Below, one piece after another: positions 2,681 to 33,211 of a stretch of 33,457 bases of DNA. Position 1 is the first letter of the stretch. The number at the start of each line of letters is the position of its first letter. A model generated the notes under the pieces. That model was not told the DNA's origin. It did not search any database and worked only from the letters and a program-made list of their open reading frames with translations. The stretch comes from a virus. Both the position numbers and the translations under genes were made by a program. The stretch spans positions 1 through 33,457 of IMG/VR virus record IMGVR_UViG_3300045733_000458; one strand, given 5' to 3'.

Positions 2681-2833
2681 TTATTTTTTATCCGGTTCTA
2701 TTTTTTGTATTACAAGTTTACCATCTTCGATTGTTAGTTTGACCGTTTCTCCAAGTCCAAGTATTTCCCTTAATTCCTTTTTTAGTAGTAAATAGTAAGT
2801 GCCGTTTAACTCTCTTAATTTTATTTCCATCAT
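2681..2833 (-). CDS. Small AbrB/MazE-like DNA-binding protein
   Basis: This 50-residue protein contains the pattern LNGTYYLLLKKELREILGLG followed by ETVKLTIEDGKLVIQ. That is the layout of swapped-hairpin AbrB/SpoVT/MazE domains: strand, 'lp kelre-lgl' helix, then 'd.v.l...dg.lvi..'. The start has AAAGGAGG at good spacing; a second ATG follows at once. It is the first gene after the minus-strand promoter, and its stop overlaps the helicase ribosome site, which suggests coupled translation. A likely role is regulation of the divergent promoter pair beside it. No toxin gene is adjacent, so an antitoxin role is less likely. Confidence 0.6.
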   Translation of the reverse strand: MMEIKLRELNGTYYLLLKKELREILGLGETVKLTIEDGKLVIQKIEPDKK

Positions 2834-22300: not shown

Positions 22301-23011
22301 TTAAGCGAATTCGTTAAAAATATTCTTATCCTTATTATTCTCATCTGCATAAAAAGCACGGGTCGCTTCGGTATAATGTTCCTTGCCAAATGGGACATAG
22401 CCCAAATGATGGCAATTCAACCCGAGGTCAACGTAAATCTTAAATCCTGCCTGTCGTGCTTTCATACAAAAAGTTAAGTCTTCGCCGATGCGTGGCAGTG
22501 GGAAAAACCAGTTGCCGCCATTGAGTTTTTTGAAGACATCAACTTTAATTAAGCAACATGCCATCCCTACCGCTTCGACCCGTACCAACCCTTCATTGTC
22601 CCATGTTTCAGGGGCTAAAACAGATTCCATAACTGGTATAATTGCACCCGTTTTTTCGTCCTTGCGGATGCATGCTTTAGTGTAAAAGCATGGTTGAAAT
22701 GGAGGATTTCGCTTGAAGCACATTGCCGATACTATATCTTTATCGTGACTAATTAATTGCTTTAGAGTATTTGGTGATGGCATCATGTCTGAGTCAAGGA
22801 AAAATAAGTAATCAACGTCATTTTCAATTGAATTAATTACCTGACTATCCCTCGCCTCATGCACTAGACAATTTGCAATCATGTTATACGCTACCTCAAA
22901 GCCTTCTGGCATTTGCAGATTCAGCATACTTGCTACCGTCAGAGTCAGTATTGACCCTGTATTAGGTATGCAAATATTTACTCTTTTTTTCGTTTTTTGT
23001 GGTGTTTCCAT
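22301..23011 (-). CDS. GT-A glycosyltransferase in the head gene cluster
   Basis: The 236-residue protein has a GT-A fold pattern: VNICIPNTGSILT, CLVHEARDSQVINSI, DYLFFLDSDMMPSPNTLKQL (DxD-type metal/nucleotide-sugar site near residue 75) and IGEDLTFCMKARQAGFKIYVD with an ED motif. It ends with a His pair (NCHHLG). It resembles the protein at 30060. It transfers a sugar from a nucleotide donor. Its place between capsid decoration genes suggests glycosylation of a virion protein. CTTTAATAAGGAGG, a dispersed repeat fused with the ribosome site, precedes the ATG. Confidence 0.8.
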   Translation of the reverse strand: METPQKTKKRVNICIPNTGSILTLTVASMLNLQMPEGFEVAYNMIANCLVHEARDSQVINSIENDVDYLFFLDSDMMPSPNTLKQLISHDKDIVSAMCFKRNPPFQPCFYTKACIRKDEKTGAIIPVMESVLAPETWDNEGLVRVEAVGMACCLIKVDVFKKLNGGNWFFPLPRIGEDLTFCMKARQAGFKIYVDLGLNCHHLGYVPFGKEHYTEATRAFYADENNKDKNIFNEFA

Positions 23012-27447: not shown

Positions 27448-28707
27448 CTAGAAATAGACACTTTTTTGATACGTCATGTCACCTTCCATGGCATACCTAG
27501 TAGCATCTATTGTGTGATTATTCTTGTCTTCAAGCCTGCTTCGAATTTCTCCGAATCGGTCTATTTGATAGTCAATTGATTCGAACTCAGAACAAATGTT
27601 AGGAGTCCGCATTGTATCTATGTATATTGCATCTAATTCATCCAACCATTTCTCGCCATACTCAACGCTTCCTGCTCCTTTTTTTGCGGATGAAATATAA
27701 ATTCCCGAATCACGAAGCTGAGATATTGATTTTGGTTCGGCTGAATCTGCAATAATAGCAGTATATCTGTCATTGTAACCTTTTTTTAATATCCAGTCTA
27801 TAATTGATTTATTTGACCTTTTAATTCCATACAATTCATCGATAAAATATAACGAATTTCGAGTTTTGTCATAATGCATCCGAACAAAAGCAAAGGCATC
27901 GTTGGCATAGCCCCAGTCAATGCCCATCCTGATATTGTCAAATGATTCAATTTGCTCATCCGTTATCGTTTCAAATTTAAGACTATCAAAAGGATTGATG
28001 CCGCCACCAATCGCCCTTCCCATGAAAATCCACTTATATTTTTGTATATTGCGTTTTCTGAGGTTCTGAGCTTCCTCGACAGTCTCCTTTGATACAAACG
28101 TATTTTGTAGATAAGTTGAATGATGAACATAGACATTATCGGGAACCAAGGCAGAGTTAAAACGCTTATTGACCCAAGACATTTTTCTTTTAGGAGGATT
28201 ATAAGACATAAATACCCTATACCTCAATCCGCCTGTCAACTCTGCCCTCAGCAATGATTGCACAATTGTGTCGATTTCATCTTCGATTACAAAGTCAGCC
28301 ACTTCTTCAAGCCATAAGTCAGCAAATGGAATTCCAGCAGACACTAAGGATTTAATCTTTTCCGGCTTGTCTGCTCCTCGAAAAATAATCTTAGTGCCAG
28401 TTGGCAAATACGTAAACTTGTAAGTCGTCTTTGCAAAGTGCCAGAGATGCGAGACTCCAAGCAAGTCAATTGCATTTTGAATTTGCTCAACGCAAGAATC
28501 TTTGAGAGTGTTTCCGACTTTTCGAACAACTATTGCATTCGATTTTTCAGTCATTCGATTGCATACTATTTTAGCGGCTATGTGCCAGCTTTTACCGCTA
28601 TTTCTGCCGCCTTTGCAGATGTAATATAAGTACTGAGGATTCTTAGCTTCCTGCCAAAAGTTCCAAAAGTTAGGCAATAACAAATCTTTGAAATTAATCG
28701 TCTGCAT
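27448..28707 (-). CDS. Terminase large subunit
   Basis: The 419-residue protein has Walker A GGRNSGKS (33-40) and Walker B LWLEE (131-135). The RNase H-like nuclease motifs are GIDWGYAND (Asp264), IIADSAEP (Asp321) and HTIDATRYA near the end. It is the PBSX/Terminase_3 type. It pumps and cuts DNA during packaging. The start at 28707 (or 28713) fits AAGGCGG and overlaps the small-subunit gene by 14 bases. Upstream in-frame codons to 28851 lie within the small-subunit gene and are basic and unlike a terminase. Confidence 0.93.
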   Translation of the reverse strand: MQTINFKDLLLPNFWNFWQEAKNPQYLYYICKGGRNSGKSWHIAAKIVCNRMTEKSNAIVVRKVGNTLKDSCVEQIQNAIDLLGVSHLWHFAKTTYKFTYLPTGTKIIFRGADKPEKIKSLVSAGIPFADLWLEEVADFVIEDEIDTIVQSLLRAELTGGLRYRVFMSYNPPKRKMSWVNKRFNSALVPDNVYVHHSTYLQNTFVSKETVEEAQNLRKRNIQKYKWIFMGRAIGGGINPFDSLKFETITDEQIESFDNIRMGIDWGYANDAFAFVRMHYDKTRNSLYFIDELYGIKRSNKSIIDWILKKGYNDRYTAIIADSAEPKSISQLRDSGIYISSAKKGAGSVEYGEKWLDELDAIYIDTMRTPNICSEFESIDYQIDRFGEIRSRLEDKNNHTIDATRYAMEGDMTYQKSVYF

Positions 28708-29200
28708 CGTCATAGACCGCCTTTTCGAGTGACAAAAGTTCCTCTTTCGGAATTTTGTCAATCGAGTCAACAAAATAAATAGTCTCTTTTGGCTCTGCTT
28801 GAATTTCGCTTGAGTGTTCCTTCCATTTGTCCGATAAATTTTGAGCAACATATTTTAACATCGATTCAGACGGCGGCAATGTTTCGGTTGTAATTTTCTT
28901 CCGGACTAAAACCTCTTCTCCATCTACGATATCAAAAAATTGCTCAATCTTGGTTGATGTATATTTGCCCAACGCTCGCTTATAGATAGAGCGTTCAATC
29001 TCCTCGATTAACCCTTCACGTCCTGAGTTCAAACAGTCGGCAAACTCTGTATATTTATTTTTATATTTTAGAAATGATACATATGAAACATCGAGATATT
29101 TAGCAATAGATTTTTCAGAGTACCCAGCCTTATGATATTCCGAAATTTCTTCAAGATAAGGCTTTACTTTAGTCTGGTATATTCGGTCAACTTTAGCCAT
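28694..29200 (-). CDS. Terminase small subunit
   Basis: A 168-residue protein with an N-terminal helix-turn-helix (EISEYHKAGYSEKSIAKYLD then VSYVSFLKYKNKYTEFADCL, residues 18-60) and a central helical segment (LIEEIERSIYKRALGKYTST). TETLPPSESMLKYVAQNLSDKW follows, as in small terminases with a DNA-binding head and an oligomerisation core. It recognises the packaging site and regulates the large subunit. It is the first gene after the late promoter. Confidence 0.88.
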   Translation of the reverse strand: MAKVDRIYQTKVKPYLEEISEYHKAGYSEKSIAKYLDVSYVSFLKYKNKYTEFADCLNSGREGLIEEIERSIYKRALGKYTSTKIEQFFDIVDGEEVLVRKKITTETLPPSESMLKYVAQNLSDKWKEHSSEIQAEPKETIYFVDSIDKIPKEELLSLEKAVYDDADD

Positions 29201-29478: not shown

Positions 29479-30057
29479 TTACGCCTTTACCAGTACCATT
29501 GTAAATATGTTTAAGTTATATCCTTGGATTAATTCGCTCAAATCAGCCGAGTTGTCGAAGTCTGAAATTTCTCCGTCTAATTTTAACCCGATTTTATCAA
29601 TTTCGACTATTATCCAATTCGGGTCGATAGTCGGATAGTCGCAAGTCAAAAGTATTTTTCCGTCGTCCTTGACGCAATCTCGGAAGCACTCCAATGCTTC
29701 AAGGGTTTCTTCGCGGGTCAAGTGTTCCAGAACCGATACGCAAACTATCTTATCGACTTTATCTTCCCAACAAATATTGGTTATGCTTCCATGTAAATAT
29801 CTAATATTTTTGGTTAAATCAGTCTGTATCAATCCAATCCTGATATCACTATCAACGCCGAATACAAATTTACACTTTTCTGCCATTTTCCATTTTAAAG
29901 GATGCTCAATTCCACATCCTGCGTCAATTACAATGTCATTTTCTTTAATACGCTTCATTACCCAAGCGTATTCGTATGGACGACTCCACCAAGTAAGCGG
30001 CATATCCCAGTCTACTGTCTCGTGATTTTTCTTTATAAACCCATTATCTAAATTCAT
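29479..30057 (-). CDS. Class I SAM-dependent methyltransferase
   Basis: The 192-residue protein has DIVIDAGCGIEHPLKW (motif I, SAM binding), FVFGVDSD (motif II) and KIVCVSVLEHLTREETLEAL (motif IV region), then GKILLTCDYPTIDP. This is the pattern of small-molecule, sugar or lipid methyltransferases rather than of DNA methylases, which would carry an NPPY-type motif. It follows a glycosyltransferase by two bases, so it may methylate a glycan or a nucleotide sugar. It starts MNLDNGF. Confidence 0.75.
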   Translation of the reverse strand: MNLDNGFIKKNHETVDWDMPLTWWSRPYEYAWVMKRIKENDIVIDAGCGIEHPLKWKMAEKCKFVFGVDSDIRIGLIQTDLTKNIRYLHGSITNICWEDKVDKIVCVSVLEHLTREETLEALECFRDCVKDDGKILLTCDYPTIDPNWIIVEIDKIGLKLDGEISDFDNSADLSELIQGYNLNIFTMVLVKA

Positions 30058-30059
30058 AA

Positions 30060-30806
30060 TTATCCTCCATAACCTTTAATAAAAAGTTTTGCCCTGCCGA
30101 CATCCGTGTCTCTATATACATGATGGGCAGGATAATGTGTATCAATCCACATACTATATCCTGCCACGTTTGCCCTTATACTAAAAGCCCTATCCTCGCC
30201 CCAAAATGATACATTTGTGACTGGTCTATAATTTACGTTCCGGCTGTAAATGCTTGTCTTAACCAGTGTCAATGCTCCCGTGCCGCCGACTTTATACGAG
30301 CCGGGACATTTTAACTTATTCAATGATTCGATTCCTGCAAAATTATAATGGTCAAAATCCCAACAATTGGGAGTCTTGCCCATTTCAGATTCAGTCCAGC
30401 GAGTCCAGAAAATCTCGCTTATTATATCTTTCTTAGCTTCGTAAAGTTGTACTAGGGTATGAGGATGTATAATCAGGTCCGAGTCTGCCCAAAATATGTA
30501 ATCGTATTGCTTGCTTTTTGCATACTTTACAATATCCTGCTTTATCTCAACCAGCCTATCGAGAGTTCCCACGGTCCAGCCATGGGAGTCAATTGACTTA
30601 TTGTATTCATAAATAGTTTCATCGCTTGCAACATCGTACTCGGCATTTATGTTGTCAGAAATAATATGATGGTTGCAATTATGAAAAACGAAATACTTAT
30701 CAACCTGACAGTCTTTTGGCGTTTCAAGCATTGATAATGACCTGCAATATAATTCAAATATTTCAGGAGTCTGGCGGATTGGTGCGGCAATTAATATTTT
30801 AGTCAT
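30060..30806 (-). CDS. GT-A glycosyltransferase
   Basis: The 248-residue protein has KILIAAPIRQTPEIFELYCR, YDYIFWADSDLIIHPHTLVQ (DxD-type site near residue 115) and FWGEDRAFSIRANVAGYSMW with an ED catalytic pair, then HYPAHHVY. The order and spacing match the enzyme at 22301, so the two are probably paralogues or from one family (Anp1/GT2-like). ATG 30806 has AGGGAG ten bases ahead and lies inside the end of the Acb2-like gene. It likely glycosylates a virion component or the host surface. Confidence 0.8.
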   Translation of the reverse strand: MTKILIAAPIRQTPEIFELYCRSLSMLETPKDCQVDKYFVFHNCNHHIISDNINAEYDVASDETIYEYNKSIDSHGWTVGTLDRLVEIKQDIVKYAKSKQYDYIFWADSDLIIHPHTLVQLYEAKKDIISEIFWTRWTESEMGKTPNCWDFDHYNFAGIESLNKLKCPGSYKVGGTGALTLVKTSIYSRNVNYRPVTNVSFWGEDRAFSIRANVAGYSMWIDTHYPAHHVYRDTDVGRAKLFIKGYGG

Positions 30807-30972
30807 TGATTTCAATCTCCCTCTGAAACTTCATAGCCCATAATTGAGCGGTCTCGACATTTGTTACTGCGATGCTCACGTCTCTCGATTTCGGCAAACT
30901 GTTTAGCTGAATAATCATTACTTCCATATCCTCGATAATGTTATTCAATAAATTTACTTCTTTCATATCCAT
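30799..30972 (-). CDS. Small Acb2/Tad1-like candidate anti-defence protein
   Basis: A 57-residue helical protein: MDMKEVNLLNNIIEDMEVMI, a linker with LNSLPKSRD, then VSIAVTNVETAQLWAMKFQR. The block SR(D/E)-x-S(L/I)A-(V/I)TxxExAxxW is, as I remember it, the hallmark of phage proteins related to Acb2 (anti-CBASS) and Tad1 (anti-Thoeris), which bind cyclic-nucleotide signals. AGGAGG lies eight bases before the ATG. It overlaps the glycosyltransferase gene by eight bases and is encoded in the late region. The assignment rests on this block alone and could be wrong. Confidence 0.5.
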   Translation of the reverse strand: MDMKEVNLLNNIIEDMEVMIIQLNSLPKSRDVSIAVTNVETAQLWAMKFQREIEIND

Positions 30973-31015
30973 TTTTTATTCCTCCTATTAAAATCGTCTT
31001 ATTAAAGAAAAATAT

Positions 31016-31738
31016 CTAACATCCAAACCTTTCACTGTCCCACACTTTCAGATTCGGACTCGGGTCAAGTATGCTTTCGTATTGCTTCAAGCTCCCATGT
31101 TCGCCCTTGCCATCTAATTTCATATATCTATCATACTTGCTGATTCTGTCCTCGCTTCTTGACCATCCTAAGTGCTTGATTGCAACATTTTTTTGGCACA
31201 CGCCGCCAAGTGGGTATGACTCCTGAGGTATTCTGCCGCAATGTAATTCGCCGTTTAGTTGAGCATACTCAACTCCAATAAGTTTTCTAAATCCAATTGG
31301 GAACTTATTATTATGCCCTTGCCACAATACATCATCACGATATTGCCTAGACGTCCACATGTCATAGACTGGACTATAAAACGATGTATAGATAGCTGGT
31401 TCAGACAACATTACCCTTAAAATCATGCCATTGCATAGTATTTCATCTGCATCTAAGATAAATATCCAGTCGTCATACTTTGCAGCTGATAGGCATTCTT
31501 TAATAAGCAGATTTCTTGAAATGGATTCATCCTTAACGAAATAATTCTTATCCAACTTTATGATTTTCATTCTCTGTCTTAGTTTAATTTCAAAATCCTC
31601 AATGATTGAGACTGTACCGTCTGTACTGTCATTATCTACGAATACATAATCATCGACCCAGCTATCGGTCGATGCCAATATTTCCTTGAGATATCGGTTT
31701 TCTTCATTGTGCGTCATCATTCCAAGTATTATTTTCAT
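31016..31738 (-). CDS. Family 2 glycosyltransferase
   Basis: The 240-residue protein starts MKIILGMMTHNEENRYLKEI and has DDYVFVDNDSTDGTVSIIED. KDESISRNLLIKECLSAAK and WIFILDADEIL (D-x-D-E metal site near residue 95) follow. This is the classical GT2 pattern. It transfers a sugar to an unknown acceptor. The first codon overlaps the stop of the AbrB-like gene (ATGA), so both are coupled. A copy of the dispersed repeat is in frame (LLIKEC), and another lies just beyond its stop. Confidence 0.85.
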   Translation of the reverse strand: MKIILGMMTHNEENRYLKEILASTDSWVDDYVFVDNDSTDGTVSIIEDFEIKLRQRMKIIKLDKNYFVKDESISRNLLIKECLSAAKYDDWIFILDADEILCNGMILRVMLSEPAIYTSFYSPVYDMWTSRQYRDDVLWQGHNNKFPIGFRKLIGVEYAQLNGELHCGRIPQESYPLGGVCQKNVAIKHLGWSRSEDRISKYDRYMKLDGKGEHGSLKQYESILDPSPNLKVWDSERFGC

Positions 31739-31905
31739 TGTCCTATCCTCGCTTCCCTTAGAAATATTACGTAATTTTCAGTATCGATATCCAAGCTTAG
31801 GTAATCCGCATCCCAGAGTTTCAATAAATCGATTACACTTTTCGGGATGCCTATCTCATACCTCGTCTGTTTTTCAAACGTTATCTTCCTTAATTTAACT
31901 TTCAT
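31735..31905 (-). CDS. Small AbrB-like protein
   Basis: The 56-residue protein MKVKLRKITFEKQTRYEIGI then PKSVIDLLKLWDADYLSLDI shows the AbrB swapped-hairpin layout: 'IP-K-x-V-I-D-L-L' helix, then 'W-D-A-D-Y-L-S-L-D-I' strand and VIFL. AGGAG lies ahead of the ATG. Its last bases overlap the glycosyltransferase start. It may regulate this operon. It is distinct in sequence from the AbrB-like gene at 2681. Confidence 0.55.
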   Translation of the reverse strand: MKVKLRKITFEKQTRYEIGIPKSVIDLLKLWDADYLSLDIDTENYVIFLREARIGQ

Positions 31906-32028: not shown

Positions 32029-32844
32029 TCAATTAAATACAATATCTAACTTATTTGAATTTCTGAAATTATATTCTTCTAGTATTGCCCTTGCGACATT
32101 AGAAGGTATTCCTTTTCCGTAAACAGCTTGATTTTTTTTAGACATACTTATAATTTTTCCAGCTGGTATTTTTCTAAATTTTGCTATAAACTTTTTTTCA
32201 TTTATTTTTCCAAACGTTTTGTTCATAAATACATTCATGCCGTACAACATTGTATTCGACAAAGCATCTGGGTCGAAAGTGCCGTCGTCATATTTCCATG
32301 TTGATACCATGATGCCTAGCAATTTATCAAGTTTATCGTAGCCTTTTGAGTTATATATGCTATATAATGCACCTATTGCATTCGTATAGCCTCTTTTTTT
32401 CGTAGACGAATCCGAATGACCTCGGCTTGATTTAAGACCGTGCTTTTGCAACAAGAATTCAATACGCGTCGTTGTATGGTCTCCTGACACTAATAAAGCC
32501 TGGTATTTTTCAAATGCATGTATGGCATTTCTGTTTATTTGGCAATTGACAAACAATCCTGCTTCCTCAGACAACGCCAAACCACTGTATACCATACAAG
32601 GGACTTCTTTATAACTTTTTCTTGTTGCCGCTACGATACGGTGCTGACCATCGATTACATAATTTCCTGAATCCCTAATATTGACTATTATAAAGCCAAA
32701 TGCCTTCCAATCAAAACTCCTAATTATATTCTTAACTTTGGCGTAACTCGCTTTTCTCTGGTAATTCCCAATATCAAACTTCAGCTCTGATATTTTCATC
32801 ATCCTTATTTCATAATTTAATTCAGGTTCTTTGGTTTTTATCAC
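32029..32844 (-). CDS. DGQHR / ParB-like domain protein
   Basis: The 271-residue protein has MKISELKFDIGNYQRKASYA near the start, then FGFIIVNIRDSGNYVIDGQHRIVAATRKSY. The D-G-Q-H-R motif with preceding 'p-v-v-v' strand is the ParB/Srx nuclease-like fold, also seen in phage DGQHR proteins. A CTPase or nuclease role is known for some relatives; here only a nucleic-acid or nucleotide-binding role can be suggested. A GTG start at 32844 is preferred (AGGGAAGG upstream) and overlaps the zinc-finger gene. No ATG is near enough. Confidence 0.65.
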   Translation of the reverse strand: MIKTKEPELNYEIRMMKISELKFDIGNYQRKASYAKVKNIIRSFDWKAFGFIIVNIRDSGNYVIDGQHRIVAATRKSYKEVPCMVYSGLALSEEAGLFVNCQINRNAIHAFEKYQALLVSGDHTTTRIEFLLQKHGLKSSRGHSDSSTKKRGYTNAIGALYSIYNSKGYDKLDKLLGIMVSTWKYDDGTFDPDALSNTMLYGMNVFMNKTFGKINEKKFIAKFRKIPAGKIISMSKKNQAVYGKGIPSNVARAILEEYNFRNSNKLDIVFN

Positions 32845-33211
32845 AATACACACCTTCCCTTTCTAATAATTCATAGACTGAAAATCTATCTTTCTTTTTT
32901 AATTTCATTTTTGCATTGTAGCAGTTTTTACAAACACTTCGATAGTAATATTTTTTATCTCGTTTGTCATAGTTTTTTTGGAAATTATCCAATGTGTACT
33001 CAATTTTACAACTTTTACACATTTTAACTTCAAGTACTACGTGTTCTTTAATTTTTTTAAGTTTTTTATTTCTTTCTTTTTGTTTTTTACTGTTGCATTC
33101 TTTGCATTTGTTTAAGCGATATCTTGCCTCCCTGCCGCCACTTTTCACGATTCGAAATTCACTAATATCTTTTTCTTTTTTACAGGCTTTACATATTTTC
33201 ACCTCGTCCAT
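32822..33211 (-). CDS. Two-zinc-finger protein
   Basis: The 129-residue Lys-rich protein has two similar Cys4 units: CKACKKEKDISEF ... NKCKECN (about residues 7-41) and CKSCKIEYTLDNF ... SVCKNCYN (about 65-99). Such treble-clef-like fingers often precede HNH or endonuclease VII domains, but no nuclease motif follows here. AAGGGAG lies before the ATG, and a TATAAT lies upstream (complement of 33248-33253). It may bind DNA and work with the DGQHR protein that overlaps it. Confidence 0.7.
   Translation of the reverse strand: MDEVKICKACKKEKDISEFRIVKSGGREARYRLNKCKECNSKKQKERNKKLKKIKEHVVLEVKMCKSCKIEYTLDNFQKNYDKRDKKYYYRSVCKNCYNAKMKLKKKDRFSVYELLEREGVYCDKNQRT

Follow-up and report, generated by a model that had tools for sequence, protein, structure and literature searches.

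The window analysed here, a stretch of 33,457 bases that makes up a whole IMG/VR virus contig, is from a tailed phage. The plus strand carries genes for a RecD2-like helicase, an ERCC4 nuclease and RecT, and the minus strand those for the portal, capsid, tape measure and amidase proteins. On the minus strand lies a small ORF (Table 1) with an ATG start and a TAA stop, the product of which is MDMKEVNLLNNIIEDMEVMIIQLNSLPKSRDVSIAVTNVETAQLWAMKFQREIEIND and contains KSRDVSIAVTNVETAQLWAM. The initial annotation had described it as a 57-residue product with a block of the Acb2/Tad1 type and a shortened N-terminus. The ORF was confirmed and is served by a strong ribosome-binding site: the sequence upstream of the ATG, AATAGGAGGAATAAAAAATG, holds both the AGGAGG and an in-frame TAA directly before the start codon. 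Because of this stop codon, the short N-terminus, with 29 residues ahead of R30, is genuine, barring an assembly error. At its other end the gene overlaps the downstream gene in ATGACTAA, which suggests translational coupling between the two.

Table 1. Features at the hairpin gene locus, in window coordinates.
Feature	Position	Strand	Basis
57-aa Acb2/Tad1-hairpin protein	30799..30972 (coding 30802-30972 plus stop)	-	PF24729, leave-one-out profile, AF2
Shine-Dalgarno AGGAGG, 8 nt 5' of the hairpin gene ATG	30981..30986	-	Direct sequence reading
Stop/start overlap of the hairpin gene with the downstream gene	30799..30806	-	Direct sequence reading
Conserved motif SRDVSIAVTNVETAQLWAM, residues 29-47, start of helix 2	30832..30888	-	Alignment of 52 sequences
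Downstream neighbour, glycosyltransferase-like (Anp1-like, below Pfam cut-off)	ORF 30060-30815, likely ATG at 30806	-	Pfam, PHROG
Upstream neighbour, family-2 glycosyltransferase, above Pfam cut-off	31016..31738	-	PF13704 E=2.5e-11, PF00535 E=6.8e-9
Methyltransferase, next after the glycosyltransferase-like gene	29479-30057		

The gene had been placed between two glycosyltransferases. This holds for the upstream neighbour, which passes the Pfam cut-off, while the downstream one resembles a glycosyltransferase at a score below it. The cluster is parted by a 278-base gap from the gene at 28694-29200, which directly precedes the large terminase gene, and within the gap a promoter-like site, TTGGCA-16-TATAAT (29285-29258, minus strand), was found as a consensus match only. 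Since the gap and this site intervene, the hairpin cluster may form a separate unit outside the structural operon. A DUF6551/ParB-like protein is encoded close to where this cluster starts, at 32029-32853 on the minus strand (PF20188 E=4.6e-17). The 56-aa product of 31735-31905 (minus strand) has by eye the look of an AbrB/SpoVT-type DNA-binding protein and was unmatched in Pfam, PHROGs, NCBIfam and PADLOC. Elsewhere in the window, a third glycosyltransferase-like gene (22301-23011, minus strand; Anp1-like, above the cut-off) lies in the structural module just 3' of the capsid gene and shares phrog_1574 with the gene downstream of the hairpin gene. The minus-strand gene at 512-2677 encodes a 721-aa protein that had no Pfam match, carries a Walker A-like GTGKTHS and a Walker B-like FDEFD and may be a helicase or ATPase that has diverged strongly; directly 5' of it, 2681-2833 (minus strand) encodes a 50-aa protein with weak MazE/AbrB likeness (E=0.0014).

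A late position of such a gene was regarded as unusual in the initial annotation, a view that the relatives do not bear out. Terminase_6C was detectable in 13 of 50 motif-bearing records among the matches listed, and nine of these 13 have the hairpin gene no more than about 6.2 kb from it, on the same strand. In Gordonia phage ChisanaKitsune the hairpin gene is directly 5' of the terminase gene, and in record L037 a short hairpin ORF is followed by terminase, portal and capsid genes; this ORF begins 2 bases inside the contig end and is possibly truncated. Other placements also occur: the short hairpins of L040 and L107 are in replication regions, and a relative in a crAss-like phage sits within a nucleotide-metabolism region. 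The records that carry kin of the terminase or of either adjacent glycosyltransferase, mostly short fragments, yielded no PF24729 match, and a search of genome contigs with the terminase for host assignment returned no match.

The family assignment is borne out by several lines of sequence evidence. The match to Pfam PF24729 (Acb2_Tad1_hairpin) covers residues 9-48 at E=5.2e-6, its 27.0 bits just equalling the curated cut-off of 27 bits, and in a six-frame search of the window the gene scored 25.7 bits, slightly below it. The match is thus borderline against the curated threshold, yet clearly significant by E-value. To collect relatives, IMG/VR was scanned with a degenerate DNA form of the motif, which returned at least 120 stretches; nearly all of the 120 listed encode small proteins with coherent sequence beyond the pattern. 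All members of an alignment of 52 sequences, the window protein included, matched PF24729. A profile built from the 51 homologues without the window protein gave it 44.2 bits, compared with a maximum of 13.3 bits for 20,000 shuffles of its sequence and at most 9.5 for the other window reading frames of at least 30 residues. This leave-one-out score is raised because the search pattern fixed motif positions; the Pfam E-value is unaffected. Against solved structures, the profile of all 52 sequences matched Acb2 homolog 43 (9ptq; E=3.8e-12), Tad1 (E=2e-7) and T4 Vs.4 (E=0.0023).

The motif, R-[ED]-x-S-[LI]-A-x-T-x-x-E-x-A-x-x-W, is present at every position in the window protein. R30, S33, A35, T37, E40, A42 and W45 are invariant in the alignment, partly by construction, as most were set by the search pattern. 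The substitutions that had led to the description as an unusual variant are mostly ordinary among the 120 relatives listed (N for K in 17, V for L in nine, T for E in eight), with only D for E being rare (two). Searches with the single sequence returned no close relative: there was no PDB match among solved structures, no relative at E<=1e-3 by tblastn of viral and genome contigs, only weak matches (E>=1) in a phage search, and no match in PADLOC or NCBIfam. Altogether, the Pfam match, the leave-one-out profile, the motif positions and the predicted hairpin support membership of the Acb2/Tad1 hairpin superfamily.

AlphaFold2 predicts two antiparallel helices (residues 3-24 and 30-56; pLDDT 93.9, pTM 0.74), in agreement with the two-helix fold anticipated from the sequence. 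Among solved structures, Tad1 ranked first in a Foldseek search of the PDB but with E 0.7-1.1, which is not significant. The top named matches in BFVD, 50-71 aa long and with E 0.08-0.23 and prob 0.99-1.00, were Acb2/Tad1 hairpin proteins, and VIA-align returned many unrelated hairpins, with no Acb2/Tad1 protein in the rows displayed. Helical hairpins being so generic, the fold agrees with the family but cannot decide membership.

The functional residues were compared with those of T4 Vs.4, in which Y8 and F82 stack on cGAMP, polar contacts come from Y8, H11, K23 and R79, and mutations at L29, A66, A73 and A77 abolish oligomerisation (PMC10097602). In addition, T68M in T4 Acb2 lowers binding (PMC12657230). 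By ungapped mapping from the motif, the hexamer-interface alanines A66, A73 and A77 are kept as A35, A42 and A46, and T68 as T37. The positions of S74, R79 and F82 are occupied by Q43, K48 and R51, respectively, and the N-terminal arm is absent, so that Y8, H11, T12 and K23 have no counterpart. Since most of the relatives listed have A or T at the F82 position, F82 is no family-wide requirement. With the arm residues Y8, H11 and K23 absent and F82 replaced by R51, the T4-type cyclic-dinucleotide pocket should be missing. As judged from this mapping, the window protein appears to keep the assembly surface and not the dinucleotide pocket of T4 Acb2.

The hairpin motif is common to the window protein, T4 Vs.4/Acb2 (7uq2) and the Acb2 of Pseudomonas phage p26 (8h2j). 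These two proteins are longer (88-94 aa) and possess the arm, with Y8/Y11, H11 and K23/K26. In Tad1 of a Clostridium botulinum prophage (7uav / 8kbf), the C-terminal hairpin with SSRENACALTHVEEALMW fits the motif, but the N-terminal four-stranded beta domain (PMC12043709) and the Tad1-like C-terminal tail have no equivalent in the window protein, whose model is helical over the 57 residues. Lacking the arm and F82 on the one hand and the beta domain and tail on the other, it should be called neither Acb2 nor Tad1. Acb2 homolog 43 (76 aa), the best solved match of the family profile, has a longer N-terminal part and FF in the stretch where the window protein has the motif Trp. The motif also occurs in short hairpins of 53-55 aa that stand alone, namely phrog_15810 and phrog_14434, which were the best PHROG matches (E about 2e-4), and gp10 of Gordonia phage WilliamBoone (55 aa); all are of low identity to the window protein and give no hint as to function. 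Such hairpins are already in databases, uncharacterised in PHROGs and under hairpin-domain names in UniProt, so that the window gene adds a divergent new member to a kind already known.

Among the relatives, L025, L067, L073 and L121, and the longer L085 (239 aa), have the hairpin at the C-terminus of longer proteins with varied N-terminal parts; an RGVEGTH tail is conserved in most of them, and they make up a distinct group that is possibly Tad1-like. Two other records, those of L043 (G040) and L018 (G023), each carry two separate same-strand genes of the hairpin family, of which the second has diverged and stays under the Pfam cut-off, at 25.0 and 17.7 bits, respectively. This arrangement suggests paired sponges with different ligands.

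Proteins of the Acb2/Tad1 family are viral sponges that mop up bacterial alarm molecules, and sponges of the Acb2 type normally have two kinds of site. At the trimer interface, both Acb2 and Tad1 have a channel that accommodates two cyclic trinucleotides and is distinct from the pockets for dinucleotides or gcADPR (PMC12043709). For the window protein, binding of a cyclic nucleotide is plausible, and the ligand would probably be a cyclic trinucleotide such as cA3. We propose, at about an even chance of being right, that the gene encodes a minimal, arm-less protein of the superfamily that acts as an oligomeric trinucleotide sponge and is without the dinucleotide pocket. The hairpins would assemble into an oligomer through A35, A42 and A46, the counterparts of the A66, A73 and A77 that T4 Vs.4 uses, and the oligomer would soak up the immune nucleotide of the host at an axis built from the first part of helix 2. 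The axial site would consist of R30-x-x-S33-x-A35-x-T37, a region common to Acb2 and Tad1; that this is the trinucleotide site we infer from the review cited above and from homology. As a result, a CBASS-type effector or a type III CRISPR effector using cA3 would be kept from firing during infection. As the hairpin is what Acb2 and Tad1 have in common, an oligomer binding trinucleotides only is the simplest reading, even if loss of the arm could weaken oligomerisation as well.

Another reading, which we consider unlikely, is a more general sponge whose ligands would still include cyclic dinucleotides, or else some other nucleotide such as a gcADPR isomer, bound through residues other than those of Vs.4. 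It would fit with K48 at the R79 position, with the prevalence of A or T in place of F82 and with the wide differences among the ligands of superfamily sponges (PMC12043709). Weighing against this reading is the absence of the whole arm with Y8, H11 and K23, given that Y8A alone disrupts cyclic-dinucleotide binding (PMC12657218; PMC10097602) and that an aromatic residue is kept in the arm region in 109 of the 120 relatives listed; the beta domain of Tad1 is absent as well.

The hairpin may instead have been repurposed for a role outside immunity, for instance by forming a small oligomer that assists either the packaging module or the adjacent glycosyltransferases. Such a role would accord with the position just upstream of the terminase gene, with the frequent proximity to terminase in other phages and with the tight fit of the gene between two glycosyltransferase-like neighbours, the downstream one of which it overlaps by stop and start codon. 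On the other hand, the motif is shared with the proven sponges Vs.4 and Tad1, and because relatives are also found in replication and nucleotide-metabolism regions, no single virion or sugar partner is conserved; we hold this explanation to be rather unlikely, though worth some weight. It is very improbable that a longer Acb2-like gene has decayed here to a relic without function. The protein is one of the shortest in the family, with a marginal score against its profile, but the strong ribosome-binding site, the intact frame, the retention of all motif positions and the high-confidence fold speak against decay, as do comparably short hairpins of unrelated phages (phrog_15810, phrog_14434, L040 and Gordonia WilliamBoone gp10).

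If the trinucleotide sponge were demonstrated, the novelty would lie in an arm-less hairpin that works on trinucleotides only. As a natural form reduced to the hairpin, the window protein splits the two kinds of site and lends itself to testing cleanly whether the shared hairpin can function by itself as a trinucleotide sponge. The very short hairpin ORFs of phage genomes that are listed as unknown in PHROGs are suggested to be good anti-defence candidates. Phages that remove cyclic dinucleotides with their Acb2 are penalised by the Panoptes system (PMC12657218, PMC12657230). More tentatively, and with doubts outweighing confidence, a 57-residue arm-less hairpin may be a self-assembling sponge with the axial trinucleotide site only, perhaps the smallest functional immune sponge, that avoids triggering Panoptes-like dinucleotide guards. 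If this is true, the arm-less form would represent one evolutionary escape from Panoptes.
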